Shown here: positions 10,252 to 25,039 of the stretch, in pieces
Numbering within the stretch: the first letter of the stretch is position 1
Layout of the letters: every line of letters starts with the position of its first letter
Source of the DNA: a virus
Reading direction: 5' to 3' (one strand)
Virus record (IMG/VR): IMGVR_UViG_3300025096_000120
Span: 1-25,039 of that record
DNA: 25,039 nucleotides
Translations under genes and position numbers: made by a program
The notes under the pieces: generated by a model
Database searches by the model: none
Seen by the model: only the letters and a program-made list of their open reading frames with translations
Told to the model about the DNA's origin: nothing

Positions 10252-13200
10252 GAGGAACACCTTCTCTTCCTTTTGGAAGAAGGTAACGGTATCTTTCTCT
10301 AAGCTCTTGTCTTGGCCACTCTCTTTGTAAACCAAGTTCGTTTTTAATTTTTAAATAGTTTTTTCTATAAGAATCAGGCATCTCCCAAGGTGTAAAAACA
10401 CCTCTAGTAATATTTTTAGCAAACAAAGTCTTGTCTACTCCGGCAGGAGCACGTTGTTGAAGTTGTTTTCTAGCTTCTCTTGCAAAAGCTTCTCCACCTA
10501 ATGTTTCAAACGCTCTATAAGCAATATAAAAGTCTTGTTGCAACTGATACCACGCTTTCTGTGCGTCGTCCCATTGTTTTAAAACTTCTTCCGCAGTTTT
10601 GGCGTCTTGTTGGTATCTAAACTCAGCCATGTTTGATATCACACCTTCTTCAAAATCGTTTTTTAAGGTGTTTATTTTAAACCCAATATCTTTTACAGGC
10701 TCTACATCAGCAATCGTGACACCCGCAAGACCGGCAAACGCTCCTGTTTTAGACTGGACATTTCCATACCTGTCAAACCGATCATCTCCTGTAGCAAACG
10801 CGTTAACGATTTTTTGCATTTGACGATAACCACCAGGGCCAGAGGTTTGTAAAACATGGTTTGCTGCAACCTTCATTTTGTCTCCCCAGCTATCGGTTTC
10901 AATGTAAATGGGGTTTCCTGTGTCGAGATCCCTGTTTTGTATCAACTCTATCATTGTTCTTGGCGCGATTGAAATACCGTAATAAGATTCCATGTAATTT
11001 TTAAACCCTTCCCATATTCCTTTGGCCACTGCTTCAGGCAATTCTGCTCCCACTTCTAATTGCGACTCAGCTTCTTTTTTAATTGTTTCTGCTGAAGTCA
11101 CCAAATCGGCAAAAGGAAAAGTGTATGTGGTGTTCATGTAATCCATTTCACCATTTGGTCCAATCTCGCTCATGGGAATTTTTAATCCTCGTTTGTCGTA
11201 TTCACGGGCCGCTTCATCTAAAGCCTCTAGCTCTTCATCATTTACGCCGTAGTAAAGCTGAGCGTAAACTTGCAGTCCTTTTGGAACCATGTAAGAAGCT
11301 AAAGCAGCTCCCACATATCTTTGAAGGCCCATTCCTTTAAACGGACGTTTTACCGCAACGCCTTCCGAAGTGGTTCCATCTGCGTTTTTTTCTAAAACAA
11401 CCTCTCTCACAGGAACACCCATGTCTTGAGCAATTTCTCCTGGTATTTTGTAAGTAGAGAGCTTATAAGCAAGTTGTGCGTTGTTTGCGGAAGTTCTTAG
11501 TATCTCAGTAGGAAAGGCAATAAAGTTTCCTGTGGGAAGTTGTCTAACAAATTGAGCAAACCGACCTACAAAATCATAGTTCGCCATTGTGTTTCTTGTC
11601 ATCCAAGAAGCAAGATAGTATGTGTAGTCTTCTAGGTTATCAATGTTTTTGTAAAGTTCGCCAGCGTCTGTTTTGTATGTGCCTGCGTTTGTTGTCAATG
11701 TACTTGAAAAATCTTTAAGCATTTGCAGTTTCGCAGAATCTGGAACCGGTGCAACAGCTTGGTTGTCCAACTGAGATAAAACAGTTTTTATGTTTACAAT
11801 ATTGGCTCCGTAATCAATCATTTTAAAAAAATCATCCACAAGGTTATAGGTTGTCCCCATTCCTTTAAGCACGTTTCCAATTGTGCCTTGATAAAACTTA
11901 CCCAAAGGCGTGTGTTTCATTGAATACAACGCATGGATAACTTGATCCCCAGAGGCAAACCCAGAAGAACCCACTTCTTTAAATATACCCAAAGCATCTC
12001 TTGTCACAGAGTTGGTAAACATAATGCCTTGCTCTCGACCAATTCTGTTTATTTTTTCAGCGGTTGCTCCGCCACCAACTAGACTTCCATCCGGTGCATA
12101 ATCTAAATCGGGAAACAAAACAGACTGGGCCATTCGAGTGGCTTCAGAAATGTTTCCTGTGTTGCTTAGTGTAAACAGGTTTCCAGTAAACATGTGCATC
12201 ATAAAAGCACCTTCAAAGTTTCTGACCTGTGTCCCAGGACTGATTACAACCATTCCATATTGCGTTAAACCTTTTGGAACAAGGAATAAATTTCTGTAAA
12301 ACTTGTAGATAGTAGATTGAGCACTGCCGTCGTCCAAATTATTTACGTTTAAAGCTTGAGCATATGTTTGTGTGGTGTACATACCGGACAAAGGATTAAG
12401 CGGATCGTCAGCAATCTTATAAGTGTAGCCTGCCGCTTGGTTTCTGACAGGGGACAAAAACATTTCTCCAGGCCTGTTGTTTATTTCTAAAAGCTCGTTG
12501 AATAGTTTGTTTCTTTCGACAAGTTGGGCTACACGAGCAAAAGACGAAGCCACTAAAACATCAGGCTCTTTTTCTGTGACCTCACCCAAAAGTTTTCTTA
12601 TAGGGTAAGGCATGTATTTCTTAGGTTTAAGTTTCAACCCCTGTTGCATTTGAACGTTTGCTTGTCCTGTTGACCTCAACGTTTCTTTCAACTGCAATAT
12701 TTCTGTCTTCGCTTCTTCGCCACCGTACATCAAATAATCGTCTACAACCTGTTCGGCTTCCGCTTGAGGATTTCTTTGAAACCTTGGGTTGTTTTGATTT
12801 GCAACTTTAACAGACGTAACCGCTCTGTCGTAAAGTTGTTTTGCCAACCTTCTTTTTTTGAAGGTAAGATCACCGGCAATAAAATTAAGAGTAGTGCCTA
12901 ATGCGCTTTTATCAAACTTTGGATTAAACCCAAGCGAAGTTTCATAAAACCCAAGAATGGAAGTGGTGTATTCACCTATTGCATTTTCAATAGACTCTTT
13001 TTCTTCTTCTTGAAGTTCTTTACCAATCTTTTCGTTTAAAACTCTTTTTGACAACGCGTCTATTTTTTTACGAGACTCTAAAGCAATTCCTTGCAATTCT
13101 TTGGGTAAATCTTTTACAGCAAGTTTGGTAGAAACAGGTCCGTCTAAGTCCGCCTGCAACCCCGCTTTTCTAGTTTCTAACTTTTCAACATCTTCACGAA

Positions 13201-15598
13201 CTATAACGTCTTCCAACTTTTTATCAATTTCAGCTATCTCGTCTTTTCTTCCTTGTTTTTGTTCCGCCGTTAAATCAATATAATTGTTTGTTCGCTTAAT
13301 GAAACTTCCCAACAAGATACGAGCCTCTAAGTCTGTCAAATCGTTATTACGAGTTGCACCCAAAATTGCTTGATTAACTTTATACCCCAATCTTTCAGCT
13401 TCGTACTGAAGACTTCTTATCCTTCCCTCGCTTCTTTTAATTGCTTCAAAAGCAGGAAGCCCGGTCATTCCAGCAGGACGCATGTTCTTGAACCATGGAC
13501 CAATGATTGCTTTATTATAAAAATCACCTTGGTTTTGAGGCAAAAGGTTGTTGGGAAAAGTAACGTGCGTAAGACTAAAGTTTGGGCTTTCAGCCTCATA
13601 TTGTTCCAATGAAACACCATCAACTGTGTCAACCAATCTACCTAAATCAGAAGCCTCTTTTTCAGTGTGAAAGAGTCCTTCTGATAATTTTAAACTCTCT
13701 AGGAAATCCGCGCCTTCCATAAAATCGCGTTGAAAATAAATTTTTTCAACGGTTCCGTCTTCGTTTGTTATTTGTCCTTCGGCACCGATTGCATTTCCAG
13801 TTGGCTCAAGTTCTTTTCTTAGTTTAGGATTATCAGGCGCTTCATCAACCATTTGTGTAAACGTTCTTGATGTTCCTTCAGGATAAATAAATTTTGGAAA
13901 CGCTTTTGATAAAATTCTTTTAAAAGGTTTTTGACTTTCTACATACGTCTTACTTTCTTTTCGTTGTTGCAACTCCAATATGGAAGCAAACTCAGCAAGA
14001 CCAAAAGCCAGTTCTTTATTGCTCATTTGGTTTATGTTCGATTGGTTTTCTACAGGGATATAACGTTTATAAAGTAGTTTTAATTGGTTGTTTGGAATTT
14101 GTGTTGTTATGTAATCAACATAATTATTAAACTCCTCCACTCCCAAAGCAGGAACCGGACCTTCCCGACGACGCATTGATCTGTCTGTTGCCGCTTCTGC
14201 AAGACCAAAAATATCTGCTTCTATGTTTGTGTCTGGATCAACAAATTCATTAAAGTTTGAAGGCGGAGCATACCCTCTTTGAGAAGCCCAAAAATTGTAA
14301 GCACCCCAAGTTTCATTTTCATCAAGGTTTCCTTCCGCGTCTGTGATTGCAAACTCTTGCATTAATTGATTGAACAAGTCTTCTCTTGGTATTTGTTCAA
14401 ACTCTTTTATCTTTGTTTTAAGAACGGTTGGTCTTTGAGACTCGCTCAACACGCTTTCTTCGGCGTTTAACTCAGCCATTTCTTCTTGCAGTTTGGCCTT
14501 CCTAAGATCTTTCATTCTTTTCAAAACAATTTCTTGCGTGTCGTTTGGATAGAACTCTATGTTTGCAAACTCCGTGTTTCGCACAGGCATTGACTTTAAA
14601 TCATCAAGAGACATGTCGCCGAAAGCAGTTTGTATTTCTTCGTTTGCTTGCGTCTCTAAACCTTCGTCAACGCTCTTAAAAAATTCGTCTTGTATGGTTT
14701 GTAAATCTGTTTTTTCTCCCATGAACTGTCTACGAACAATTCTCGCGGTTGCCGGCCCTTCAAACGCAAGCTCTCCGACCGCTGACTTTACAAGTCCTTC
14801 CGTAAGGTCTTGGTCAGGATCGATGTTTTGTTTTACAATAACGTTTCCAACGTATGTGTCGGCTGTACCGATAGCGGGCTGAATAACAGCTTGCATCAAA
14901 TAATTTTCTATCATGGATTTAGATACACCAAGTCTTCCAAAAACAACAGACATGGCGTTTATAACAGCAGAATAACCCGCTTTTTCTTTTGCGTAGGACA
15001 TGGCGCCTTCTTTATCGCCAGGGTGTGTTTCTAAATAAGTTACATAGGCGTCGCCAAACTCTTGTGCAAACACCGCGCCACCGCCCGCAGTCATAGAAGC
15101 CGCAATGGCCGCAAAAGGATTTTTTATAGGTGATTTTTTAACGGCTGCGTAACCAGCAGACGCTCCGGATAAAAAAGGAACAGATCCAGGAATTATTTCT
15201 CCAAGAGTTTGTGCCCACCATTGAGAGTCGGTCAAGTTTTTAAAAGACTCAACACCCGTTTCTCCGTACTTTGATTGATAGCGTCCAAGATTTTGAATGA
15301 TGTCTTCACGTTCTACCATTCTTTCTCGTAAAGCTCTCGCTCTTTCCATCAACTCTTCGGCTTCTTCTTCATCCCCTCTTTCTCTAGCTCTGTCTGCTCT
15401 TCTTGCAAGCATTACTTCACCAGTGGTTCCTAGGCCTACAACCGTGCTTTGATACCCTGATTTAAACCCTCTACCTGCTCTTGTAAAAAAAGGCACAGGC
15501 TCTTGTTCTTCAACAGGCTCTTCTACGTCTTCTATAACAGGGGGAACAGAAGCTAGGTTTAACTTCTGTTTTTCTTCTTCAGTTAGTTCTCTAGGCAT
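10208..15598 (-). CDS. Giant internal-virion / DNA-ejection-type protein (1796 aa)
   Basis: The largest gene in the window and last of the late operon. The N-terminus is acidic (EEEKQKLN, EDVEEPVEEQEPVP). A highly charged helical stretch spans residues about 62-115 (RRADRARERGDEEEAEELMERARALRERM). A Gly/Ala-rich hydrophobic region follows (130-190, ending AGGGAVFAQEFGDAY), then AVINAMSVVFGRLGV (211-225) and AVGELAFEGPATA (273-285). The rest is long, mostly helical, with a coiled-coil stretch near residues 770-820 and no enzyme motif I can identify. Size, helical content and late-operon position match internal core/ejection proteins of podoviruses (T7 gp15/gp16-type role), but the family is not recognised by sequence. 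Start ATG 15598 has a poor ribosome site, 14 nt after the preceding stop. The 3' end overlaps the nuclease gene tail-to-tail. Confidence 0.85.
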   Translation of the reverse strand: MPRELTEEEKQKLNLASVPPVIEDVEEPVEEQEPVPFFTRAGRGFKSGYQSTVVGLGTTGEVMLARRADRARERGDEEEAEELMERARALRERMVEREDIIQNLGRYQSKYGETGVESFKNLTDSQWWAQTLGEIIPGSVPFLSGASAGYAAVKKSPIKNPFAAIAASMTAGGGAVFAQEFGDAYVTYLETHPGDKEGAMSYAKEKAGYSAVINAMSVVFGRLGVSKSMIENYLMQAVIQPAIGTADTYVGNVIVKQNIDPDQDLTEGLVKSAVGELAFEGPATARIVRRQFMGEKTDLQTIQDEFFKSVDEGLETQANEEIQTAFGDMSLDDLKSMPVRNTEFANIEFYPNDTQEIVLKRMKDLRKAKLQEEMAELNAEESVLSESQRPTVLKTKIKEFEQIPREDLFNQLMQEFAITDAEGNLDENETWGAYNFWASQRGYAPPSNFNEFVDPDTNIEADIFGLAEAATDRSMRRREGPVPALGVEEFNNYVDYITTQIPNNQLKLLYKRYIPVENQSNINQMSNKELAFGLAEFASILELQQRKESKTYVESQKPFKRILSKAFPKFIYPEGTSRTFTQMVDEAPDNPKLRKELEPTGNAIGAEGQITNEDGTVEKIYFQRDFMEGADFLESLKLSEGLFHTEKEASDLGRLVDTVDGVSLEQYEAESPNFSLTHVTFPNNLLPQNQGDFYNKAIIGPWFKNMRPAGMTGLPAFEAIKRSEGRIRSLQYEAERLGYKVNQAILGATRNNDLTDLEARILLGSFIKRTNNYIDLTAEQKQGRKDEIAEIDKKLEDVIVREDVEKLETRKAGLQADLDGPVSTKLAVKDLPKELQGIALESRKKIDALSKRVLNEKIGKELQEEEKESIENAIGEYTTSILGFYETSLGFNPKFDKSALGTTLNFIAGDLTFKKRRLAKQLYDRAVTSVKVANQNNPRFQRNPQAEAEQVVDDYLMYGGEEAKTEILQLKETLRSTGQANVQMQQGLKLKPKKYMPYPIRKLLGEVTEKEPDVLVASSFARVAQLVERNKLFNELLEINNRPGEMFLSPVRNQAAGYTYKIADDPLNPLSGMYTTQTYAQALNVNNLDDGSAQSTIYKFYRNLFLVPKGLTQYGMVVISPGTQVRNFEGAFMMHMFTGNLFTLSNTGNISEATRMAQSVLFPDLDYAPDGSLVGGGATAEKINRIGREQGIMFTNSVTRDALGIFKEVGSSGFASGDQVIHALYSMKHTPLGKFYQGTIGNVLKGMGTTYNLVDDFFKMIDYGANIVNIKTVLSQLDNQAVAPVPDSAKLQMLKDFSSTLTTNAGTYKTDAGELYKNIDNLEDYTYYLASWMTRNTMANYDFVGRFAQFVRQLPTGNFIAFPTEILRTSANNAQLAYKLSTYKIPGEIAQDMGVPVREVVLEKNADGTTSEGVAVKRPFKGMGLQRYVGAALASYMVPKGLQVYAQLYYGVNDEELEALDEAAREYDKRGLKIPMSEIGPNGEMDYMNTTYTFPFADLVTSAETIKKEAESQLEVGAELPEAVAKGIWEGFKNYMESYYGISIAPRTMIELIQNRDLDTGNPIYIETDSWGDKMKVAANHVLQTSGPGGYRQMQKIVNAFATGDDRFDRYGNVQSKTGAFAGLAGVTIADVEPVKDIGFKINTLKNDFEEGVISNMAEFRYQQDAKTAEEVLKQWDDAQKAWYQLQQDFYIAYRAFETLGGEAFAREARKQLQQRAPAGVDKTLFAKNITRGVFTPWEMPDSYRKNYLKIKNELGLQREWPRQELRERYRYLLPKGREGVPLMGSPRLPTPWTED

Positions 15599-15612
15599 GT
15601 TTCAGCACCGCC

Positions 15613-17034
15613 TTAAAGTTTATCTAGTGCGATCCACTCTCTTAACGCTTTAGCTGTGTTTTCGTATTTTGAATATGGAAGAGACATATCTGTTTCAAAC
15701 TCTTCATGCTTTTTGGCAATAAAGTCATCAATGTTGTACGCTAATCCACCATACACCCTTTCCCCTGAATACTGAGGAAGTTCTCTCGTAAAGGCCATTG
15801 GAGAATCGTCTTTCACTATCGCGTGTTGAACAAAAACAGTGGGCTCAAGTTGTAAAGCTTCAGCTGTGGTTTTTGCCGTTTTCATAATATCATTAAACTT
15901 TCTCGTTTCTTGCACCTCTGGTTTCGTCATCGCTGTAATTAAATCCATAGGCATAGCCGTGTCTTTACCAAGGCCCGCTCTTGAACCCGTTGAAAGAGAT
16001 TTTAAAAGATTTATTTCGTCTCCAAGCGCTTGGCTTTCTGCTTCAGCTTGATTGGCTCTATACGCGTTCATCTGCGACGCAAACCCAAGTATGCCTCCTT
16101 GTTTTGTTTGTGGCATCACTGCTGATTGTCTTGCTAGCTTTTTACGCTCTTCAATAATTTGGTTAAGCCTTTGTCTGACTGTAGTTGGACCTGCTCCATC
16201 AATCCCTTCTTTATAAACAGCATCTAGTGGGGATTGCCCAGCAGAAACAGGGGCTTTTGTTCCTTTTTCTATCAACGCTCTTGTAACCAACATTTGTCTT
16301 GTAGTTTTTGGAAGCATATTAAACTCTTCCAAAGTGTACTTTCCTGGAAAAGCAGAAAAAACTGCGTCTAGTTGTTCTTGCGTGGTAGGCAGCGCTAAGC
16401 CTCCGTCTTGCATTTCTTGTATTCCACCTGAATCAAAAGCCACCTTAACTTCTTCCATAAACTCTGGTGTAAACAACTCTTGTTCAGGACTATACTCTTT
16501 TACGCCGTGTCTCTTCATCATGTCTGTTAGATCGTTTTGATAAGACAACTGCATTGTTTTTAAAAACGGACCAAGCTTTTCTACAGCACCTGGTTTTTCT
16601 ACAAAACTAAATATTTCGTTTTTATAGTCTTGTTTAAGGCCCATCAAATCTTTTTCAAAGTTCATGGGTCCTTGGTCCTTGGACATTTTGCCCATGCCCA
16701 TGCCCATGCCCATAGGCTTAGTTTCCATTTTATTGATGTCCTCAACTGAAGGATTGGTCATACTTGCCATGGTATTAAGAGCCATGTTGATGTCTTGATC
16801 GCCTTGTTCAAAGAGTTGTGAGGGCATCACTTTACCCCCCATTTGATAACGCCTACCGTCCATAACGTTTTCTTTTTGTCCTTTGGTCATCTTGTCCCAA
16901 ATAGAAAACATTTTTTTACGTTCCACAGGCGTTGCGCCAACAGCTCCCCCACCTCTGTAGCTAGGGTAAGGTACAGTGCCTCCGCTTTGCATATCAATGG
17001 CGGAAGAGAACATTTTACGTCCTTTCCAAGCCAT
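15613..17034 (-). CDS. Virion-associated protein with GG-tag motifs (473 aa)
   Basis: I do not recognise a named family. The N-terminus has DMQSGGTVPYPSYRGGGAVG (14-33) and RYQMGGKVMPS; a third related element, MQDGGLALP, lies near residue 210. Between them is a Met-rich run (KPMGMGMGMGK) coded by a hexanucleotide repeat at 16691-16714. The middle and C-terminus are soluble and helical with no membrane segment. The operon position between the NPY-motif protein and the giant internal protein points to a structural role in the head or ejection apparatus. The start codon overlaps the preceding stop by one base (TAATG at 17034). The same short GG tags occur in two other late proteins here, which supports a common assembly function (inference). 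Confidence 0.75.
   Translation of the reverse strand: MAWKGRKMFSSAIDMQSGGTVPYPSYRGGGAVGATPVERKKMFSIWDKMTKGQKENVMDGRRYQMGGKVMPSQLFEQGDQDINMALNTMASMTNPSVEDINKMETKPMGMGMGMGKMSKDQGPMNFEKDLMGLKQDYKNEIFSFVEKPGAVEKLGPFLKTMQLSYQNDLTDMMKRHGVKEYSPEQELFTPEFMEEVKVAFDSGGIQEMQDGGLALPTTQEQLDAVFSAFPGKYTLEEFNMLPKTTRQMLVTRALIEKGTKAPVSAGQSPLDAVYKEGIDGAGPTTVRQRLNQIIEERKKLARQSAVMPQTKQGGILGFASQMNAYRANQAEAESQALGDEINLLKSLSTGSRAGLGKDTAMPMDLITAMTKPEVQETRKFNDIMKTAKTTAEALQLEPTVFVQHAIVKDDSPMAFTRELPQYSGERVYGGLAYNIDDFIAKKHEEFETDMSLPYSKYENTAKALREWIALDKL
16668..16678 (-). repeat. Dispersed 11-mer, copy 3
   Basis: An exact GGACCAAGGAC on the minus strand within the 473-residue virion gene, read as the codons for D-Q-G. It is followed on the plus strand by a further CTTGG, making a short local reiteration. 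Confidence 0.6.
16691..16714. repeat. Hexanucleotide repeat (CCCATG), 4 units
   Basis: Three perfect CCCATG units and one with a final A (CCCATA) lie in frame in the 473-residue gene and encode alternating Met-Gly. Gain or loss of a unit would change the protein by two residues without a frameshift. Confidence 0.7.
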
Positions 17035-17879
17035 TAAACGTACCCAAGCATTTTAAACAAGTCGGCTAAACCACCGCCAGCTTGAGAACCGTAAGTGGTT
17101 GAAGCTCCTGTTGGAAGCATTCCAAGCATACTTTGATACGCTTGCATACGTTTCCAAGGCTCCATAGCCATTTCTTGTGCACCTTTGTATTGAGAATCAT
17201 ACATTTGTTGTTGTATGCCTTGTCCTTCTTTTCCAAACTGACTGTATTGGTTTATCTGATTCATCAGGCCTTGTTGTCCTTGCATACCTAAATCAGCAAA
17301 ACCTCGTCCCATTTGTCCCATACCTTGTCCAAGTTGCCCTAAACCTTGTCCCGCTCTTTGTGCCAAGTTTTGTGCTTGAGTATAGCCTTGTTGCCTTAGT
17401 TGTCCGGCCGTATCTGCCATGCCTTGACCGAGTTGATTAAACCGTTCTTGTGCCATGAGTCGTCCACGACCGCCGCCATAAGCTCCGGAACCTACTGCAC
17501 CAGATCTCGCTTGCATGTCTTGTTGTGAGAAATTCTTGTACACATCATCAAGAGAGTTTTGCACCACTTGAGACTCATACGGGTTGTAAAACTGTTGTGC
17601 CGCGCCTGGACTATACATCCCTTGTGCTTGTTGCAAAGCTCCAAAACCTTGCTGTGCCATGCCCGCACCTTGTTGTAAATACGGTGTAAACCCTCCAAGA
17701 CCGCCTGCTAATGAACGCGCTTGCATTTGGTAAGGATCGAATCCAGCAACTTGCCTGATTGGAACAGGAATAGGTTGATTAGCTAAGCCCGCTGCTGATT
17801 CTAAAAACCCACGACGCATTGCACCAGCATAAGGCTGGTCGTAATAAGCCGTAGTTTCTGCATCTGTGTAACTTCCCAT
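17034..17879 (-). CDS. Gln/Gly-rich virion protein with NPY motif (281 aa)
   Basis: A 281-residue protein of very biased composition (Gln, Gly, Ala, Met). It contains FYNPYESQVVQNSLDDVYKNF (97-117) followed by DMQARSGAVGSGAYGGGRGRL (121-141) and MAQERFNQLGQGM. I know the combination NPYxxxVVxxxLxD...Q...A...GAYGGGRxRLxxAE from many uncultured marine phage virion proteins, with no experimentally fixed role known to me; an internal or ejection-associated component is a reasonable guess. The C-terminal third is repetitive (AQRAGQGLGQLGQGMGQMGRG) and probably helical rather than membrane-spanning. It follows the 306-residue gene with no gap (its ATG is immediately before the preceding stop region) and overlaps the next start by one base. 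Confidence 0.82.
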   Translation of the reverse strand: MGSYTDAETTAYYDQPYAGAMRRGFLESAAGLANQPIPVPIRQVAGFDPYQMQARSLAGGLGGFTPYLQQGAGMAQQGFGALQQAQGMYSPGAAQQFYNPYESQVVQNSLDDVYKNFSQQDMQARSGAVGSGAYGGGRGRLMAQERFNQLGQGMADTAGQLRQQGYTQAQNLAQRAGQGLGQLGQGMGQMGRGFADLGMQGQQGLMNQINQYSQFGKEGQGIQQQMYDSQYKGAQEMAMEPWKRMQAYQSMLGMLPTGASTTYGSQAGGGLADLFKMLGYV

Positions 17880-18800
17880 TTAACGCCCCATTGAATTGAT
17901 TTGTTCTAGTGTCGGTATGCCCACAGCATCTACCGCTTCTCTACGGACGACAAACTCACCCGGCTCTAGTTTTGCAAAAGTAATGTCCCCCGGTCTTTTC
18001 TTTATAGAGCCTCCGCTTTTGTAGCCCATTTTTTGTGCTACACCGGGCCGGACTTTAGAAAAAGCTGCTAATCCACCTTTCATCATTCCTGGCGCGTTTC
18101 CATAACCTACTCCTGGAAGCAATGCAGGCTGTAGTTTTGTAGGTTGATAGTCTTGATAATTAAACGCTGGTCCTCCGTAAGCTTCTCCTCCAATGGGAAC
18201 GCTTCCTCCACTATCTTGATCTTTTAACAAAGACTTCATCATTAAATACTGCAACAACGGACTTCCACCAAAGCCTCCGCCTTCGCCTCCGCCAATACCC
18301 AACATACTAAGCAAACCGCTACCTTGTCCACCGCCTTGTCCACCAAGACCTAACAAAGCACCAAGTAGGCCACCGCCTCCTAAAACGTTTCCGCCCAAAG
18401 GACCTTGGCCTCTTCCTGCAAAGAAGTCTCTTAAAATTGGTCCAGCACGACCTCCAAATATTCCCGTGTCATAGTCACGCGCATCGAAACCCATGTCGTC
18501 TCCTTCATAAATTCCATAACCTTCTTTCATGTCAGGAGTTGTAGAAAAATCGATGTAAAAAGGATCATCTTTAGACAACCCAGTAGCAAGATCAACATAG
18601 TCTTCTATATCAAAGTCCATGTCGTCTCCTTCGTAGGCGCCAAAATCTCCTTTCATAGGCGTATCAACAATAATTTCATTTATAAAATCATCCAAAGAAA
18701 AGTCCATGTCGTCTCCTTCGTAGACTCCATAACCTTCTTTCATATCAGGAATATCAAAATCAATGTCTAAAAAACTGTAATCGTCGTCAAACAGTCCCAT
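17880..18800 (-). CDS. Virion protein with triple acidic repeat and C-terminal GEFVV motif (306 aa)
   Basis: First gene of the late operon, with ribosome site GGAGA 7 nt before ATG 18800. Residues 1-110 are strongly acidic and hold three copies of a 15-16 residue unit: DMKEGYGVYEGDDMDF (19-34), a diverged PMKGDFGAYEGDDMDF (48-63), and DMKEGYGIYEGDDMGF (90-105). Residues 115-180 are Gly-rich with short Leu runs (LLGALLGLGG, GLLSMLGIGG). The C-terminus reads GYKSGGSIKKRP then ITFAKLEPGEFVVRREAV (273-290). The PGEFVVxxxAV element is common near the C-termini of phage tail and other virion proteins, often beside GG-x-V tags. The acidic N-terminus may act as a Ca2+/cation-binding or DNA-mimicking scaffold; this is speculation. 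I do not assign a named family. Confidence 0.78.
   Translation of the reverse strand: MGLFDDDYSFLDIDFDIPDMKEGYGVYEGDDMDFSLDDFINEIIVDTPMKGDFGAYEGDDMDFDIEDYVDLATGLSKDDPFYIDFSTTPDMKEGYGIYEGDDMGFDARDYDTGIFGGRAGPILRDFFAGRGQGPLGGNVLGGGGLLGALLGLGGQGGGQGSGLLSMLGIGGGEGGGFGGSPLLQYLMMKSLLKDQDSGGSVPIGGEAYGGPAFNYQDYQPTKLQPALLPGVGYGNAPGMMKGGLAAFSKVRPGVAQKMGYKSGGSIKKRPGDITFAKLEPGEFVVRREAVDAVGIPTLEQINSMGR
18486..18746 (-). repeat. Three acidic repeat units inside the 306-aa virion gene
   Basis: Units lie at 18699-18746, 18612-18659 and 18486-18533. They share the nucleotide core CATGTCGTCTCCTTC on the plus strand, so they look like duplications of DNA rather than only similar peptides. The middle unit has diverged most. 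Units one and three encode nearly the same 16 residues (V/I and D/G differences). Confidence 0.85.
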
Positions 18801-18832
18801 TTATGTCTCCGTTATTGTGTGTACCTATTTTC

Positions 18833-18860
18833 ATTTTATTCTACCATGATTTTTTGTTAA
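18833..18860 (-). promoter_or_regulatory. Sigma70-type promoter of the late virion operon
   Basis: The minus strand has TTAACA (18860-18855), a 16-bp spacer and TAAAAT (18838-18833); each hexamer matches consensus at 5 of 6 positions. The start would be near 18826, about 25 nt before ATG 18800, with GGAGA between. It lies in the 63-bp gap after the basic virion gene and would drive the genes from 18800 down to 10208. Confidence 0.6.
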
Positions 18861-18863
18861 TGT

Positions 18864-19880
18864 TTATTTTCTTGAAGCCCCACCAGTGCTTATTTTGCGC
18901 TCTGGTTGGTACCAATCTCTTTTAGGGGTTTTTCCTTTTGCCAACATCTTAGCAATTCTCCTTTTAAAATTAGCTGCCCTTAGTCCTTGGTTCGTGGACT
19001 GTGCAGCACCGGGCACTAAACCATACATATAAGCACTGGGATCACCGCCTGTTTCTGCTAACCTTTCCCCAATTCCTCCACCGTACATATTTTGTTGTTT
19101 AATCATATCAGCAATTTCAGAAATTCTGGGTTTTCTAGGCTCTCTTGCTCTTTTCTGAGCAGTCACTTCTATAGGTTGTATGTCTGGATACATGTCTACA
19201 TCCTCTTCAGCCGAACCCATGCCGTATTTTTCTTCATAAGACTTTATTGGTGATATTCGAGCAAACAAGTTTCTTAGTTGTGGTCCTAGTCCTTGGCCCA
19301 ATATTCCTTTTTGTCCTTCTATTCTCGGTTGAATTTTATTCATCAACCACCCAAGACCCGCTATTTGTGGAAAAGCTTGAGCAAACTTTAGTCTGCCAGA
19401 TACTCTAGGGTCTAAGAGTCCTTGCATAATTTTTGAGCTCATCGGTGCTTTTGATCCCATGATTCCTAAACCCAAAGGACCTCCTCTGTTTTGCAACAAC
19501 ATTCCCCACGGACCCACTTTTTTAAACAACGCTTCTATGCCTGCTCGTTGTCCTAAAGCTTTACCAAGTCCCATAGGTCCTTGATCCCTAAACGCTTTAT
19601 ATAACCCGTATTTCTGCCTAATGTTAGGATCAGACATAATACCTGACATAAGCATATATTTTGCGAACTGTCTTTTAAATTTTTTATCTTCGTCGCGGAT
19701 CGCTTGAACAGCAGCTGAAGGCTCTTCATCCTCTGTTACCATAACAGAGCCGCCTGTTTGATAGCCTTTGTACCCAGAAGCATACGCAGCTCTTACTTGT
19801 TTTGCGGCTTGAGCTTTTGTTGGATAAACCTTTCCAGATTCACCCCACTTGTATCCTCCTTTTACTTTTTCAATAGGCAT
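18864..19880 (-). CDS. Basic virion-associated protein with KWGxSGKVYPTKAQA motif (338 aa)
   Basis: I place the start at ATG 19880, where TAATG overlaps the preceding stop, rather than at the upstream in-frame ATG 19982. That choice removes 34 Arg/Asn-rich residues which are read from within the neighbouring gene. The protein then starts MPIEKVKGGYKWGESGKVYPT...AAYASGYKG, a short module seen in phage virion and capsid-maturation proteins. A GG tag follows at once (GYQTGGSVMV). The rest is basic and helix-rich with Gly/Pro-Met patches (RDQGPMGLGKALG, RGGPLGLGIMG), and ends in a lysine/arginine tail. No enzymatic motif is visible. It is the last gene before the late-operon promoter, and its stop lies 4 bp from the -35 box. 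A structural role is inferred from its neighbours. Confidence 0.78.
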   Translation of the reverse strand: MPIEKVKGGYKWGESGKVYPTKAQAAKQVRAAYASGYKGYQTGGSVMVTEDEEPSAAVQAIRDEDKKFKRQFAKYMLMSGIMSDPNIRQKYGLYKAFRDQGPMGLGKALGQRAGIEALFKKVGPWGMLLQNRGGPLGLGIMGSKAPMSSKIMQGLLDPRVSGRLKFAQAFPQIAGLGWLMNKIQPRIEGQKGILGQGLGPQLRNLFARISPIKSYEEKYGMGSAEEDVDMYPDIQPIEVTAQKRAREPRKPRISEIADMIKQQNMYGGGIGERLAETGGDPSAYMYGLVPGAAQSTNQGLRAANFKRRIAKMLAKGKTPKRDWYQPERKISTGGASRK

Positions 19881-20212
19881 TATAATTCGATTGTTGTTGA
19901 GCCGTTTACCGATACGGTTATGTCGCCCAATTGTCCGGTGGCCTTCACGCCTTTTCCGTCCGGTGCGTATAGTGTTTGCCACCTGTTTCCATCAAAAACC
20001 TGAAGACTGTCTTCTGTCAGGTTCCAGATGATGTCTCCGCGATTGAAAGAAAGCTGGTCGCGGACTGTGTTAGTATACTGATAAGTCGCTGTAGGATCAA
20101 AACTTTGTAGGTTTAATTCTAAGAGCCTTACCAATCTGTTGAATAACTCAGGGTGAACGTGTCCATGTGACATATCAGCCGTCGGTAGTCTAGTGACGAG
20201 TAATCGCGACAC
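19880..20212 (-). CDS. Small tail-associated protein (110 aa)
   Basis: A 110-residue protein begun by GTG 20212, overlapping the preceding TAG by one base (TAGTG), which suggests coupled translation. The middle has a helix ELFNRLVRLLELNLQSF, then FNRGDIIWNLTEDSLQVFDGNRWQTLY. The pattern GDIIxNxTxxxLQVFDGxxW resembles short beta elements found near phage tail fibre or tail-tip proteins. The C-terminus GDITVSVNGSTTIEL is beta-like. I infer a small accessory tail protein from the position right after the gp10-like gene; no specific family is assigned. A later start at Met14 is possible but would lose the overlap. Confidence 0.65.
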   Translation of the reverse strand: MSRLLVTRLPTADMSHGHVHPELFNRLVRLLELNLQSFDPTATYQYTNTVRDQLSFNRGDIIWNLTEDSLQVFDGNRWQTLYAPDGKGVKATGQLGDITVSVNGSTTIEL

Positions 20213-22098
20213 TATCTTCGCCCATCGGTTCTAGTGTTTAGTCTCATGTCTCCCAATCGCCAGCCCACACCAAGCCTTTCCCCTGTCGTTGCATCATCGT
20301 CCGATTCTAGTCGCACCACTGCTTGTCGTGCCCTTCCTCTTAAGTCTACTTTCTGTGTGCTTTGTGTAACCTGGCTGGTGCTTTTGGTTGTTAGGCTTTC
20401 ATTGGGGTAGTTTCTAGTTTTTAGCACAAAATTAACCACTTGATCTGAGCCGCCGTCACCGAGAAAACGAACATCAGGGATTGCGTTTTGTACTTGTGTG
20501 TACGCATTTCCTATGTTGTCCAACGAAAAATCTGCCGACTCAATGTACACGTTGTCCATGGGCGTCCCGTCCGCATCGTTTCCGGTTTCATGCTTGTATA
20601 CATAGTTACTGGTATCGGTGCCCGTGGCCCTCGGGTAAGGTTGCACACCTTCATCCAACCAAGCAAAACGGGTCAACTGGCCATAGTACCAAACCTGTTC
20701 CTGATAGTTATACGTCACATAACGATCTATTTCTGTGGAACTTCCCGAAGGATAGAACCAGCCCACCTCATTAAACTGTCGGTTTAAATAACCAAACACT
20801 TTAAACGATTGTCCCTGGTTAAAATCATCAAACACATAGCTGTGCACGGAACAAGGCACTCTTGAAACAGAGCCGTTGTAATTATAGAAACCAGAGCGAT
20901 CCATCCAATACACCCCCGCTGGTGTATTGACACAAGCTTTGGGAGCGACCATACCGACACCGGAGTTGATTAAATTAACCCCAAACGTGTACGGAGGACC
21001 AATAAACTGCATACTGTACAGCGCGTCATCGGTCCAAATCAGTGTTTCTTGTCGGGAGCGAAGGCCGCCCACAATTTGTGTTCCCGCCGAGAGTCTTAGA
21101 GATCCGGCGGTGTTGTTGTAAGTGGGTTCCCATTCATTAATATTTTCTTGGTCACACCAACAAATAAACATAGGATCAACAGCACCGGTTCTAGCTACTC
21201 CTGCATCATCTAAAGGGTCTGCCCCTAAACAAATAACATGCCGGTCAACATCGCTGACCAATGTTTGCAGGGCCAGTGTAGGAGGCAGGTTGGCCCCTAG
21301 TTCGGTTAAGCTTTTGGCTCTAACACTTGTGCCGTTGTTCTCGGTCCAATAAAAAATACCGCCGGCTCTTGGATTAATAATGAGGTCTTCACCAAAGTTG
21401 TCTTGCGTCCAAAGCCTTAACTGGTTGTTAAAGGCAAGTGCAGAAGCATCACCGTATGTGCCGTCTCCCCACATTCCTGCACCGTATCCTGAACCAGAAA
21501 CATAGTCATCGAGGCCCACATTAATTTGATAAGCGCCAACAACACTTGACCCACCGTTCCCAGAGTCACTTGCGTTTGCTGTAACGGTATCGCCATCGGT
21601 GTCTTTGGCTTCAATGGTGTAGCTGTTGGCGTCTACAATTGTTGCAATCTCATATTCTTGATTAAGAACGGTCGCGGTAATTAACCCGCCCAAAGTAGCG
21701 GCACCACTAAAGGTGACAAAATCGTTCTTACTTGCACCGTGAGACGTGTCTGCCACGGTGATGGTCGCATCGCCGTTCGCTGCTGAGAAAGTCACGTCCC
21801 CAGCAGAGGTTGTCGCTCGTATTGGGGTAACATCGTAAAAATTGTCCCCTTCTTTGACGTAGTATTTAAGGGTTGTGCCCAAACTCAAATATTTTGTAGT
21901 TGCTAGAGACACCCATGCGTGCAGAGCTCGCGCCGTCCCCAGATACGTTGCTGTTTGTTCTTTCTCCCAGCCCCCTATTTTTTCAGGGAAGCTTTTACGG
22001 AAACGAACCAAATTGGAATCAAACCACCCGCCTTGAGCAGAAAACGCGGTTCCTTCTCTATTGACTCCTGGTTTAAGTTTAAATGTAGCGTAGGGCAT
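20212..22098 (-). CDS. P22 gp10-like tail accessory / stabilisation protein (628 aa)
   Basis: A 628-residue, beta-rich tail protein. It starts KLKPGVNREGTAFSAQGGWFDSNLVRFR (7-34) and EKIGGWEK (39-46), a frequent opening in marine phage tail genes. The body has many strand-turn repeats consistent with a beta-propeller-like fold, and it ends in RGRARQAVVRLESD then GVGWRLGDMRLNTRTDGRR, similar to the C-terminus of P22 gp10-type stabilisation proteins that close the head-tail channel. The match is by overall pattern, so moderate. Residues about 95-195 look like an inserted Ig- or beta-sandwich-type domain (GDVTFSAANGDATITVADTSHG to SYTIEAKDTDGDTV). It lies 16 nt downstream of the holin-like gene; AAGG lies before ATG 22098. 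Confidence 0.72.
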   Translation of the reverse strand: MPYATFKLKPGVNREGTAFSAQGGWFDSNLVRFRKSFPEKIGGWEKEQTATYLGTARALHAWVSLATTKYLSLGTTLKYYVKEGDNFYDVTPIRATTSAGDVTFSAANGDATITVADTSHGASKNDFVTFSGAATLGGLITATVLNQEYEIATIVDANSYTIEAKDTDGDTVTANASDSGNGGSSVVGAYQINVGLDDYVSGSGYGAGMWGDGTYGDASALAFNNQLRLWTQDNFGEDLIINPRAGGIFYWTENNGTSVRAKSLTELGANLPPTLALQTLVSDVDRHVICLGADPLDDAGVARTGAVDPMFICWCDQENINEWEPTYNNTAGSLRLSAGTQIVGGLRSRQETLIWTDDALYSMQFIGPPYTFGVNLINSGVGMVAPKACVNTPAGVYWMDRSGFYNYNGSVSRVPCSVHSYVFDDFNQGQSFKVFGYLNRQFNEVGWFYPSGSSTEIDRYVTYNYQEQVWYYGQLTRFAWLDEGVQPYPRATGTDTSNYVYKHETGNDADGTPMDNVYIESADFSLDNIGNAYTQVQNAIPDVRFLGDGGSDQVVNFVLKTRNYPNESLTTKSTSQVTQSTQKVDLRGRARQAVVRLESDDDATTGERLGVGWRLGDMRLNTRTDGRR

Positions 22099-22114
22099 TT
22101 TTATATAATAACCT

Positions 22115-22549
22115 TTATTTTTTAACTAGACTACCACCAAAATACATGCCAATGATGGCCGATACTAGGTTTGTGTCCAACTGTGTTATAACCAATCCTT
22201 GAAATGTAACCCATTCAAAGACCTCTCTTCCTTCTTTGAAAAACCAAAAGCCGGGCATCCAGTTTGTGTAGCCAACGGTTACGGATACATCGGGGTAGTA
22301 GACCGCCACAAGCTTTGGTAGCAGTATAATAGCAAAGATCGAAGTCAGTGCGATTACTCTTCTTGTAAACGTAAAGCCGTTGTCTTTAACATTTCGAGCC
22401 GCCTCTATGGCCTGTAGTTGAAACTCGCCTCTTGTTATAAGTAATTGTTGTTCTTCGGCTTTTGCCTTTCTGCTCTGTGACCAAATACTTAACAAACTAC
22501 TCAACAAGGTCGAGCCCAACATCGTAATTATTTCAAATGGGAAGCCCAT
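22115..22549 (-). CDS. Holin-like membrane protein, 3-TM GTA-type family
   Basis: A 144-residue inner-membrane protein that probably times lysis. An amphipathic or membrane segment at 6-22 (EIITMLGSTLLSSLLSI) is followed by a charged helix (SQSRKAKAEEQQLLITRGEFQLQAIEAARN). A second membrane segment spans 64-85 (RVIALTSIFAIILLPKLVAVYY) and a third is near 116-140 (FQGLVITQLDTNLVSAIIGMYFGGS). Landmarks FTRRVIALTSxFAIxLxPKLxAVYxP, WFFKE and LDTxLxSAIxGxYFGGS fit the 3-TM holin family known from alphaproteobacterial phages and gene transfer agents. No endolysin gene is in the window. It is 14 nt downstream of the cyclase gene, with no clear ribosome site, and shares its strand with the tail genes. 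Confidence 0.78.
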   Translation of the reverse strand: MGFPFEIITMLGSTLLSSLLSIWSQSRKAKAEEQQLLITRGEFQLQAIEAARNVKDNGFTFTRRVIALTSIFAIILLPKLVAVYYPDVSVTVGYTNWMPGFWFFKEGREVFEWVTFQGLVITQLDTNLVSAIIGMYFGGSLVKK

Positions 22550-22563
22550 AATAGAAGTATAAA

Positions 22564-24342
22564 TTAAAAAGAGAAAACGCTCAAAGGTTTCTCTTTTCCT
22601 TTGACTTTTATAGTGTCTACAAAATTGAGGTCAAAAGCACAGAAACGAGCCGTGTCTTCTCCTACCAATAAACTAACTCCCAGGTCCTTGGTCCCCGATT
22701 CAAGTCTCGCTGCCACATTGACCGCATCGCCTATGGCAGTGTAATCAAACCGTGTTTCCGATCCCATGTTTCCTATCACAGCGGTGCCGGAATTAATTCC
22801 TATACCAATTTCAACAGTGGGCAAACCCTCTTTTTCAAACTCTGTGTTTAATTCTTTCATGTTATCCATAATAAGCTTTGCGCAAATAAGGGCTTTTGTT
22901 TCGTGTGCAGGTTGGTCTAAAGGCGCGTTCCAAAACGCCATCATCGCATCACCAATGTACTTATCCACAGTGCCTTCAGCCCTTTGCACCGCTTTTTGTT
23001 GGGCGGTCAAAGCTTTGTTCATAATGTAGGTCACTTGCTCTGGAGGCAGTGTTTCTGACATAGCTGTGAACCCTCTTACGTCCGTGAACAAGAATGTTGC
23101 GTATCTTGTTTCTCCTCCAAGGACCAAAAGCTCTGGGTTCTCTTGCAGTCTTTTTACTTGTCTTGGGTCAAGATAGTGTTCAAACTGTTTTTTAATCTCT
23201 TGCCGAAGCTTGTATTGTTCTCTAAAGTTCAGGTAGAAGCCAGCGGCCCCCATAATAAACGCAGCGACCAGAGACCAAGTGACATCAATCAACAAGTTAT
23301 TTTTTATTAAGTAATACCCACTACTGAGAACAAAGCCGTTTAACGCAAGAAAAAGAACCAAGCCCGAACTGATTCCAAACACAGCCACAAAAACCCATGC
23401 CAAAGAAGCCACAACCAAATAGATACCCAGTTCAGCCAAAAGCGCGTAATCGGGGATCATTGGGCTGTCTTGTATCAATATAGACTCCGACAAGGCCGCC
23501 TGTATTTTATGAGGCTCTACTAGACCGACAGGGGTTGCGACTTGTGGCATAACACCTTTTGCAGTGACCCCGACGAAGATGAACCGGTCTTTGATTAGGT
23601 CTGTGCCTTTGATGTCAGCAAGAGAAAACTCTGGCGTATTGACCCAACTGATCCACTTCCTACCCAATGTGTCGGTCTTAACTGGGGGCAAACCTTTGAC
23701 TCTAATCTCTTGTATACCTGCATCTGAAGTTTTTATTAGGTAAGTGTCTGACCCCGTTAAGACCTTCAAAACCTCTGTGCCGTAGGCAGAAACCCAACCG
23801 TCAGGGGTTCTTAGTAATAATGGCATACGCCTTACCAGTTGGTCAACCTCAGTGGGCGCAACCGCTATGCCTTGGTATGCTGCTTCTCGCAGCAACGGAA
23901 TGTTTTGTACCACCCCTTTGGCTTTAAAGCCACCATGATCTTGGCCCAGGATCACTGTCCCCGTGGTCAGTGGATACTCTCCATTGTCGTTTTCAAAAGA
24001 AGCTAAGATACTGGGAGCAGAGGCAAGACTTTCCGCAAATGCCAAATCACCACCAAAACGATCTGGTTGAGGAAAGGCGATAACCCAACCAACACCCAAT
24101 GCACCTTTATCAATAAGCTCATTTTGTATTTCTGCCAATCTTTTTCTAGGAAACGGGTAGCCTCTTTCTTTCGCTACGTCGTCCTCTGTAATGTTTAAAA
24201 TAGAAAAAACGTTTGAAGGTTGTTTTTTAACAACAAACGCATCGAAGGTCTTCAGTTTCATTGTTTCATAAAAGGTTGGGTTGTACACCAACGGCAGCCC
24301 TAAGACAAGCAACAAAACCATAAATACTTTGGTTTTAATCAC
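22564..24342 (-). CDS. CHASE2-transmembrane class III adenylate cyclase
   Basis: A 592-residue membrane sensor enzyme, predicted to make cAMP from ATP. One N-terminal membrane helix (about 3-20) leads to a CHASE2 sensory domain (about 25-295, outside the cytoplasmic membrane; signature DRFIFVGVTAKG at 252-263). Three helices follow (about 300-322, 325-346, 352-371). The cytoplasmic cyclase domain covers 405-592. Catalytic residues are all present: metal ligands D421 (FTDVRGF) and D465 (KYIGDAM), base-recognising K461 and T535 (the class IIIb pattern), and transition-state N542 and R546 (NVAARLE). A cytoplasmic coiled segment FREQYKLRQEIKKQFEHYLD (373-392) links them. GTG 24342 overlaps the curlin gene by 8 nt; ATG 24321 is an alternative. 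The domain plan is common in bacteria, but the position among phage lysis and tail genes is unusual. cAMP rather than cGMP is inferred from K461/T535. Confidence 0.92.
   Translation of the reverse strand: MIKTKVFMVLLLVLGLPLVYNPTFYETMKLKTFDAFVVKKQPSNVFSILNITEDDVAKERGYPFPRKRLAEIQNELIDKGALGVGWVIAFPQPDRFGGDLAFAESLASAPSILASFENDNGEYPLTTGTVILGQDHGGFKAKGVVQNIPLLREAAYQGIAVAPTEVDQLVRRMPLLLRTPDGWVSAYGTEVLKVLTGSDTYLIKTSDAGIQEIRVKGLPPVKTDTLGRKWISWVNTPEFSLADIKGTDLIKDRFIFVGVTAKGVMPQVATPVGLVEPHKIQAALSESILIQDSPMIPDYALLAELGIYLVVASLAWVFVAVFGISSGLVLFLALNGFVLSSGYYLIKNNLLIDVTWSLVAAFIMGAAGFYLNFREQYKLRQEIKKQFEHYLDPRQVKRLQENPELLVLGGETRYATFLFTDVRGFTAMSETLPPEQVTYIMNKALTAQQKAVQRAEGTVDKYIGDAMMAFWNAPLDQPAHETKALICAKLIMDNMKELNTEFEKEGLPTVEIGIGINSGTAVIGNMGSETRFDYTAIGDAVNVAARLESGTKDLGVSLLVGEDTARFCAFDLNFVDTIKVKGKEKPLSVFSF
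22684..22694 (-). repeat. Dispersed 11-mer, copy 4
   Basis: An exact GGACCAAGGAC on the minus strand in the cyclase gene, read as the codons for T-K-D. This frame agrees with copy 1 but not with copies 2 and 3. Confidence 0.6.
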
Positions 24343-25039
24343 TTTGATTAATCGTCAATGTTTTATTGCAATTGGTGGTGCAGTTGTAGTTGACCGTGAT
24401 TGATTTGTTGGTTGCCCCTGATTGTGTTGCAGTCACATCGTAATCATCCGTATAGAAATTGAGTTTCATGTAATGGTCGCCACTACCTGTCTGAGTTATG
24501 CTTGCATCATTGTTGTCGGCTGATGTGCTTGCGTATATCTTGGCATAGTGTTCGCCTGTCCCCGATTGCGTAATAGAAAAATTGGAGCTGTCGCCAAAAG
24601 CTCTGATCTCTCCCTCCTTGTCATCACCCGTTTGTGTAATTTCATATACGTTATTGTCGCCCTGCATATAGATTTCAGCATCGTTGTTGTTGCCGTTCTG
24701 CACAATGTCCATGTCGCTGCCATCATCGTCTGCATCGATATAACCAAAGTTATCGTTTCCATCTTGTTCAATCTTGTATTCATTTCCCGTATGGTTTGCA
24801 ACTTGACTATAGGCTCTTGCTGTGTTTGAGGTTCCGTTCTGATCTATATCTATTTCTGCATTGTTACAACTGTGTGTTGTGTAAGTGCCTTCAGATAAAC
24901 CACACCAAACTCTAGTAGTATTGCTTGTTCCTACTTGGTCAATGTGTATCAAAGAACCACTGCCTTTGGTTCTTATTTCAACGCTGTTGTCTCCCGCATA
25001 AACAAAAGAGGACAGACTAATCAGACTGATTAATAATAA
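24335..25039 (-). CDS. Secreted curlin-repeat (amyloid-like) protein, 5' end outside the window
   Basis: The frame is open from base 25039 to TAA at 24335 (234 residues in the window). It starts with LLLISLISLSSFVYA, the hydrophobic core and A-x-A-like end of a signal peptide; cleavage is expected after the Ala coded at 24997-24995, giving a mature start GDNSVEIR. A start at TTG 24952 would cut off the signal, so it is not the true start. The mature part has about nine curlin-like repeats built on I-x-Q-x-G-x-x-N: IDQVGTSN, IDQNGTSN, IEQDGNDN, IVQNGNNN, ITQTGDDK, ITQSGTGE, ITQTGSGD, ATQSGATN and a final INQSD. CsgA/CsgB-type repeats form stacked beta strands and amyloid fibres in the known family. 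Four Cys in two pairs (HSC and VWC; NC and NC) are unusual for curlins. No CsgG or CsgE/F export gene is in the window. It overlaps the cyclase gene by 8 nt. Confidence 0.88.
   Translation of the reverse strand, partial: LLLISLISLSSFVYAGDNSVEIRTKGSGSLIHIDQVGTSNTTRVWCGLSEGTYTTHSCNNAEIDIDQNGTSNTARAYSQVANHTGNEYKIEQDGNDNFGYIDADDDGSDMDIVQNGNNNDAEIYMQGDNNVYEITQTGDDKEGEIRAFGDSSNFSITQSGTGEHYAKIYASTSADNNDASITQTGSGDHYMKLNFYTDDYDVTATQSGATNKSITVNYNCTTNCNKTLTINQSD

Follow-up and report, generated by a model that had tools for sequence, protein, structure and literature searches.

A Gly-Gly tag in neighbouring ejection-type proteins of an uncultured phage and its relation to a tape-measure-type module

Does a seven-residue element that recurs in three neighbouring phage proteins point to a common function, or is it an accident of glycine-rich sequence? 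The question is raised by IMG/VR record IMGVR_UViG_3300025096_000120, which derives from an uncultured virus of bacteria and was analysed over its whole length of 25,039 bases (the window). Three adjacent virion-type proteins of the window, of 473, 338 and 306 amino acids (aa), carry elements with a Gly-Gly (GG) dipeptide between hydrophobic residues, hereafter the tag. The tag is conserved in homologues, is enriched in all three protein families and, in the 306-aa protein, stands directly before a block that resembles tape measure proteins. Judged by these sequence comparisons, the tag appears to be one half of a tape-measure-type module that a P22-like phage uses again in its ejection block.

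The tag, its conservation and its enrichment

The tagged proteins are encoded in a block with the order stabilisation-type protein (phrog_3287), small proteins, 338-aa protein, 306-aa protein, DNA-ejection-like protein (phrog_4287), 473-aa protein and giant protein. With a DNA ejection protein homologue and a stabilisation-type protein nearby, it has the appearance of a P22-like ejection block. The original prediction listed five elements, MQSGGTV, YQMGGKV, MQDGGLA, YQTGGSV and YKSGGSI, and all five are present. The features, including the relevant open reading frames (ORFs), are as follows.

15613-17034, minus strand: 473-aa protein, with tags 1, 2 and 3 and a weaker copy
16972-16992, minus strand: tag 1, MQSGGTV, residues 15-21 of the 473-aa protein, read in the sequence; GG in 23 of 28 aligned homologues, a gap in 5
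16939-16959, minus strand: weaker copy YRGGGAV, residues 26-32 of the 473-aa protein; YESGGVV or YRGGGAV here in several relatives
16828-16848, minus strand: tag 2, YQMGGKV, residues 63-69 of the 473-aa protein, preceding a conserved LFE[EQ]GDxDI
16393-16413, minus strand: tag 3, MQDGGLA, residues 208-214 of the 473-aa protein, from the sequence and the alignment of homologues
17034-17879, minus strand: 281-aa DNA-ejection-like protein without a strict tag (phrog_4287, E = 2.1e-8)
17880-18800, minus strand: 306-aa protein with the full module, tag plus tape-measure-type block (sequence and model)
18066-18086, minus strand: MMKGGLA, second tag-like element, residues 239-245 of the 306-aa protein (sequence and alignment)
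18003-18065, minus strand: cassette AFSKVRPGVAQKMGYKSGGSI, residues 246-266 of the 306-aa protein, ending in the YKSGGSI tag (18003-18023, residue 260)
17883-17996, minus strand: tape-measure-type block RPGDITFAKLEPGEFVVRREAVDAVGIPTLEQINSMGR, residues 269-306 of the 306-aa protein (phrog_37649, E = 1.7e-5; tblastn; hhalign to lambda gpH 752-777)
18864-19880, minus strand: 338-aa protein, with its ATG start at the end of a 110-aa ORF; the open frame reaches a GTG at 19982 (372-aa ORF)
19743-19763, minus strand: YQTGGSV tag of the 338-aa protein at residues 40-46 (residue 74 when counted from the GTG start of the 372-aa ORF)
19764-19880, minus strand: KVKGGYKWGESGKVYPTKAQAAKQVRAAYASGYKG domain directly before the YQTGGSV tag of the 338-aa protein (phrog_31267, E = 8.9e-8)

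The strict pattern [FYWM][QK]xGGx[VIAL] matched these five elements and nothing in the other 17 of the 20 window proteins tested. Shuffling the residues of the three tagged proteins together gave a mean of 0.088 strict tags and a maximum of 2 in 5,000 shuffles; taken singly, the 473-aa protein reached P < 0.0002, and the 338-aa and 306-aa proteins 0.035 each. The looser [QK]xGG, after which the element was originally named, lacks this specificity and also occurs in the helicase, the primase and other window proteins. At the second position Gln or Lys is preferred and not required (MVQGGYV, MMHGGDV). By the comparisons made, the hosts are otherwise unrelated, as had been claimed: the best BLASTP value among the three was E = 0.69, and profile comparison of the 473-aa and 306-aa families gave E = 0.29. 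Searches of Pfam, NCBIfam and PHROGs returned no convincing family for the 473-aa protein. The sharing of a tag is thus confirmed. Because the pattern was fixed only once the elements had been seen, it is conservation in relatives that carries weight.

Conservation was examined in alignments of hand-picked, mostly longer ORFs, 28 homologues of the 473-aa protein (found at 7 loci at first, with more in later scans) and 26 of the 306-aa protein; the corresponding labels in the enrichment list below hold 29 and 39. In the 473-aa family the tags stand at matching positions: [FYWM]xxGGx[VIAL] is missing from none of the 28 aligned sequences and occurs two to four times in 27 of them. The column of tag 2 reads GG in 20 of 28 rows and GD, GS or GA in 5, four of which retain both hydrophobic flanks, and has no clear equivalent in the remaining 3. 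Among the 306-aa homologues, [FYWM]xxGG lies within 40 residues before PGEFV in 25 of 26, the last one reading AMHGG. Tag positions and flanks are kept down to about 20-30% overall identity. Lack of conservation in relatives had been named in advance as grounds for rejecting the tag, and both families show the opposite.

Enrichment was measured in 253 viral loci and the window, which together yielded 1,203 non-redundant ORFs of 90 or more residues once duplicates, ORFs with unknown residues and ORFs more than 85% identical to a kept one had been dropped. Labels were assigned by best hit to the window proteins, as single-linkage clustering merged the 473-aa and 281-aa families. Family members are related, so the tag counts given here are not independent events.

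473-aa family: 49 strict tags versus 0.36 in shuffles; 29 of 29 sequences tagged
372/338-aa family: 23 strict tags versus 0.93; 23 of 34 tagged
306-aa family: 15 strict tags versus 0.61; 12 of 39 tagged
281-aa family: 3 strict tags versus 2.12; 3 of 48 tagged
Giant family: 0 strict tags versus 1.30; 48 sequences
Stabilisation protein family: 0 strict tags versus 0.41; 19 sequences
Primase family: 3 strict tags versus 0.17; 3 of 24 tagged
Polymerase, UvrD-like, helicase, PD-(D/E)XK, 264-aa, 187-aa, cyclase, 110-aa and 144-aa families: 0 strict tags
Unlabelled ORFs: 23 strict tags versus 5.1; 21 of 819 tagged

The wider scan that the original prediction called for thus found the tag far more often than in shuffles in the three tagged families, not at all in most replication families and three times in primase homologues. 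These three matches presumably come from SGGVHL, a conserved motif of this type of primase; the window primase reads KSGGVHL. The loose pattern [FYM]xxGGx[VI] occurred 12 times under the 281-aa label versus 3.47 in shuffles. GG dipeptides had [FYWM] at -3 and [VIAL] at +2 in 44% of cases within the 473-aa family, in 2% within the giant and stabilisation families and in 4% within the replication families and the 281-aa family. The unlabelled tagged ORFs are in part distant counterparts from the same block and in part not; therefore the tag is enriched in, and not confined to, the ejection block. Recognition of the tag by the giant internal protein, one of the roles originally proposed, found no support: strict tags were absent from all 48 giant-family sequences, and the 1796-aa giant protein of the window (10208-15598, minus strand) had no convincing match in Pfam, NCBIfam or PHROGs.

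The tape-measure-type block and the shared cassette

The C-terminal block of the 306-aa protein reads PGDITxAxLEPGEFVxxxxAV and is similar to tape measure proteins, including lambda gpH. The match of the window protein to phrog_37649 is confined to residues 261-306. At E ≤ 0.01, its 26 homologues matched the PHROG tape measure families phrog_37649 (11), phrog_3547 (8) and phrog_24 (5), although 13 of the 26 matched phrog_35029, which is of unknown function. When the C-terminus was used in tblastn at E ≤ 0.01, 6 of 7 records (4 of 5 phages) were named tape measure, as were 20 of 34 at a loose limit of 10, duplicate records counted. The 306-aa family profile aligned with lambda gpH 752-777 over 26 columns (hhalign, E = 2.6e-6, probability 88.7%).

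The likeness to lambda-type tape measure proteins (TIGR01541; gpH) extends to the tag, which lies upstream of the GEFV block and in lambda downstream as well: FATGGFT (733) and YATGGYV (778) stand on either side of RGEFVF. In five of seven tape measure proteins (lambda, KB12-38, Seuss, MacGully and MaryV) the block is preceded by [FYWM]xxGGx[VIT], and in CN1A (ANTGGLI) and Jojan60 (VATGGYI) by weaker forms; all but lambda came from a search with a tag-containing query. In P-TIM68, a protein whose gene is the second after that of a putative baseplate hub subunit combines MQGGGEV with EPGEFV.

A test independent of the tag was made by scanning viral contigs for DNA encoding EPGEFVxxxxAV, which gave at least 120 stretches, of which 80 loci, with unannotated ORFs, were used. 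Among the 62 non-redundant ORFs, 42 had [FYWM]xxGGx[VIALT] within 60 residues upstream of the block, versus 3.6 to 3.7 in shuffles, and comparison windows elsewhere in the same ORFs held the tag in 11 of 1,060 cases. Removal of the seven relatives of the 306-aa protein left 36 of 55 ORFs tagged upstream, versus 3.18 in shuffles. Some of the viral ORFs with this block (loci L276, L293, L308, L305, L285 and L327) are very long and unannotated (2,178 to 4,847 residues, some open-ended), contain several FAxGGxV-type tags and have the block far from their end.

In contrast to a lambda-type tape measure, the 306-aa protein is no long ruler; its gene belongs to a podovirus-type ejection block, in which separate proteins carry lone tags. 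It had no match to TIGR01541, nor to any family at E ≤ 0.1 in that search (the lambda gpH control scored 448.7 bits against a cut-off of 104.75). The long, mainly helical ruler region is absent from its 306 residues, for which only a few short helices are predicted (mean predicted local distance difference test score 50). No tail-tube or tail-tip gene was recognised among the neighbours searched, which include stabilisation and ejection-type genes.

The YKSGGSI tag closes a longer unit that reads [YF]PNxGLxALxKxxPxVVxxMGYxxGG in relatives. Its PxVVxxMGYxxGG part occurred 13 times in 11 ORFs, some in tandem: four times under the 306-aa label, three under the 473-aa label, three in long ORFs labelled 281-aa and three in unlabelled ORFs. 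Tag-bearing cassettes are thus common to neighbours without other detected similarity, and they have probably been exchanged by recombination.

A candidate docking role and its alternatives

The likeliest role of the tag, in our analysis, is docking of ejection proteins in the DNA conduit by means of the tag of a tape-measure-type module, a reading to which we assign a probability of roughly 0.46, slightly short of even odds. The tag would be the turn, built of small residues (Met/Tyr/Phe-x-x-Gly-Gly-x-Val/Ile), in a modular peptide. In its complete form, the tag plus a PGDxTxAxLEPGEFVxxxxAVxxxG block, this peptide is found in tape measure proteins of long-tailed phages, located in lambda about 100 residues from the C-terminus. 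The 306-aa protein ends in this complete form, and the 473-aa and 338-aa proteins have copies of only the tag. If the tagged proteins ride in or beside the packaged DNA, tags in flexible linkers could be short motifs by which ejection proteins dock on one another or on the portal or plug, so that these proteins would be stored, released in order and built into a conduit. The model for such docking would be the tape measure C-terminus, which docks at the tail tip and is then expelled ahead of the DNA. Published work describes gpH 818-842 as a coiled coil on the gpI plug (PMC10721106), proposes that gpH exits before the DNA (PMC11101478) and reports that the TP901-1 tape measure protein without its last 30 residues leads only to heads (PMC5099701); the labelling of gpH described below (PMC13190303) counts for docking as well.

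The models of the 473-aa and 306-aa proteins had low or middling confidence overall. In that of the 473-aa protein, tags 1 and 2 fall in low-confidence linkers and tag 3 mostly so, the confident parts being helices around 124-201 and a C-terminal region that starts near 380; the 306-aa tag also falls in a low-confidence stretch. Such placement is expected of short linear motifs. A search of solved structures with the 306-aa protein gave nothing useful. Besides gpH entries, a structure search with the lambda gpH tail matched designed SAKe proteins, which we took as chance.

Related phages were compared with the window. The order of P22-like ejection sets (stabilisation, others, ejection-type, larger, giant protein) is similar, and so is the gene order of DSL-LC04, which ends in an annotated DNA transfer protein, the positional counterpart of the window giant; the phrog_3287-type homologue of DSL-LC04 is annotated as a stabilization protein. 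The DSL-LC04 block has FAMGGIA, FANGGIA and DGEFVF in a 759-aa protein named tape measure, and MANGGIV in a 645-aa protein. HTVC027P has YADGGRI, FNEGGRV and NNEFVF in gp82 and FRKGGNV in gp84, and the part of the Pag-Yong1 genome that was compared has three tags and DGEYVI. No GEFV-type block was found downstream of the stabilisation-type gene in CRP-902, HTVC023P, phiM5, DB virus 2 or OspP_OH. The phiM5 record, from a phage with a related stabilisation protein, notes internal virion proteins found in particles. Across nine phages including the window, the four with a GEFV-type block have 3 to 8 tags (8 in the window, with a weak tag of the giant protein included) and the five without have 0 or 1, a co-occurrence that is suggestive only.

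Several observations weigh against docking by a tape-measure-type module. The comparison of nine phages has a small sample and includes no correction for shared ancestry. The five podoviruses without the GEFV-type block have a related stabilisation protein and 0 or 1 tag in the ejection block; therefore the tag is not universal and not required for ejection in general. Conversely, [FYWM]xxGGx[VIAL] occurs outside the block twice in DSL-LC04, three times each in HTVC027P and Pag-Yong1 and a few times in some others, and small proteins before the terminase genes of CRP-603 carry tags. The unlabelled ORFs are enriched too, in loose tags (91 versus 13.9 for [FYM]xxGGx[VI]) as well as in strict ones (23 versus 5.1), and the share of GG dipeptides in tag context is only 12% in the 372-aa and 10% in the 306-aa family. 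The EPGEFV block is not always terminal: once relatives of the 306-aa protein are set aside, 39 ORFs have a visible stop, and in these it lies within 110 residues of the end in 20 and within 300 in 32, and more than 300 away in 7. Low model confidence also follows from shallow alignments, and Foldseek with the 473-aa model found nothing at E ≤ 0.001 in PDB and BFVD. Finally, the docking element of lambda resolved in PMC10721106 is the helix 818-842 and not the tag region.

If the tag does not dock proteins in the conduit, it could act after ejection, as a small hydrophobic turn that inserts in the inner membrane or binds to it or to a periplasmic host factor. The hydrophobic -3 and +2 positions would suit this, although seven residues are too short for a membrane span. 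During injection gpH receives label from a fusion with an inner-membrane protein (PMC13190303), and podophage internal virion proteins are described as a conduit through the envelope (PMC8954989); however, the gpH region tied to a host factor in PMC13190303 is around 300-400, not the C-terminal module. Overall we regard action after ejection as unlikely. The tag might otherwise be a site cut after GG by a virion-assembly protease. Some viral proteases, of the adenovirus and African swine fever virus types, cut GG-x motifs, and in the 473-aa protein the tags separate parts that are predicted to fold. Nevertheless, the residues at the cut are not invariant, given the GD, GS or GA of 5 of 28 rows at tag 2, and such tolerance is easier to reconcile with a turn in a bound peptide than with a cleavage site. 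The +2 Val/Ile is constrained as well as -3, tags in relatives are as close as 11 residues, and searches of the ten proteins encoded at 10208-25039, not all of them in every library, revealed no protease, the replication-side proteins not being searched for one. In addition, no head gene was recognised on the 25-kb fragment. Tape measure proteins are indeed cut during assembly in lambda and T5, but the T5 site is after Arg (R1127), its C-terminal piece staying in the tip (PMC10038345). The cleavage signal offered by the original prediction is thus disfavoured, and we consider it distinctly improbable.

The most sceptical alternative holds that the tags are low-complexity Gly-rich linkers that converged without a specific partner. 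It would agree with the low confidence of the modelled tag regions, with the tags in unlabelled ORFs and with the 306-aa family being rich in GG of which just a tenth is in tag context. Composition-matched shuffles, though, yield far fewer tags, also upstream of EPGEFV, and positions and flanks persist to low overall identity; this alternative is very unlikely. From the original proposal of a signal for virion assembly, what stands is a real conserved tag in an ejection-like block, while GG cleavage is less well supported and a role of the giant protein is left untied to it.

Neighbouring genes and meaning

Other features of the window touch the same genes or lie near them. The KVKGGYKWGESGKVYPTKAQAAKQ domain (19764-19880, minus strand) is the main match region of most kept relatives of the 372-aa ORF (80 kept of 414 viral stretches). 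In phage CRP-603, small proteins encoded before the terminase genes have the KVKGGYKWGESGKVYPTKAQAAKQ domain or tag-like GG repeats (L261:2107-2400, 2648-2917), and the one with the KVKGGYKWGESGKVYPTKAQAAKQVRAAYASGYKG-type domain has YAKGGDT after it. At 22564-24342 (minus strand) the phage fragment encodes a protein with CHASE2 and adenylate/guanylate cyclase domains, matched over almost its full length by phrog_35576, of unknown function (E = 5.7e-131). Its gene adjoins that of a curlin-repeat protein (24335-25039, minus strand; Curlin_rpt, E = 5.4e-15); the window and viral loci together gave 7 non-redundant ORFs in the cluster of this protein.

TIGR01541 covers lambda gpH 472-813, module region included; therefore the block is already known as part of tape measure proteins. 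A literature search, which included few subscription papers and is no proof of absence, turned up no account of the tag as a separate element, of podovirus ejection proteins that use it, or of a GEFV module recurring in different proteins. A broader idea, which we consider doubtful, is that Met/Tyr/Phe-x-x-Gly-Gly-x-Val is a general conduit tag of tailed phages, common to tape measure and ejection proteins, marking those stored in the lumen and ejected with the DNA, and recognised with or by the GEFV block.

The short module connects two poorly understood classes of proteins that open the path for DNA, the tape measure proteins and the podovirus ejection proteins. If the tag is a docking motif, mutations of a few residues would probe the loading and ordered release of ejection proteins, and the tag would help to pick out probable lumen proteins from the large number of marine phage proteins that lack annotation. 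These findings suggest that the proteins travelling ahead of viral DNA may use a common docking piece.

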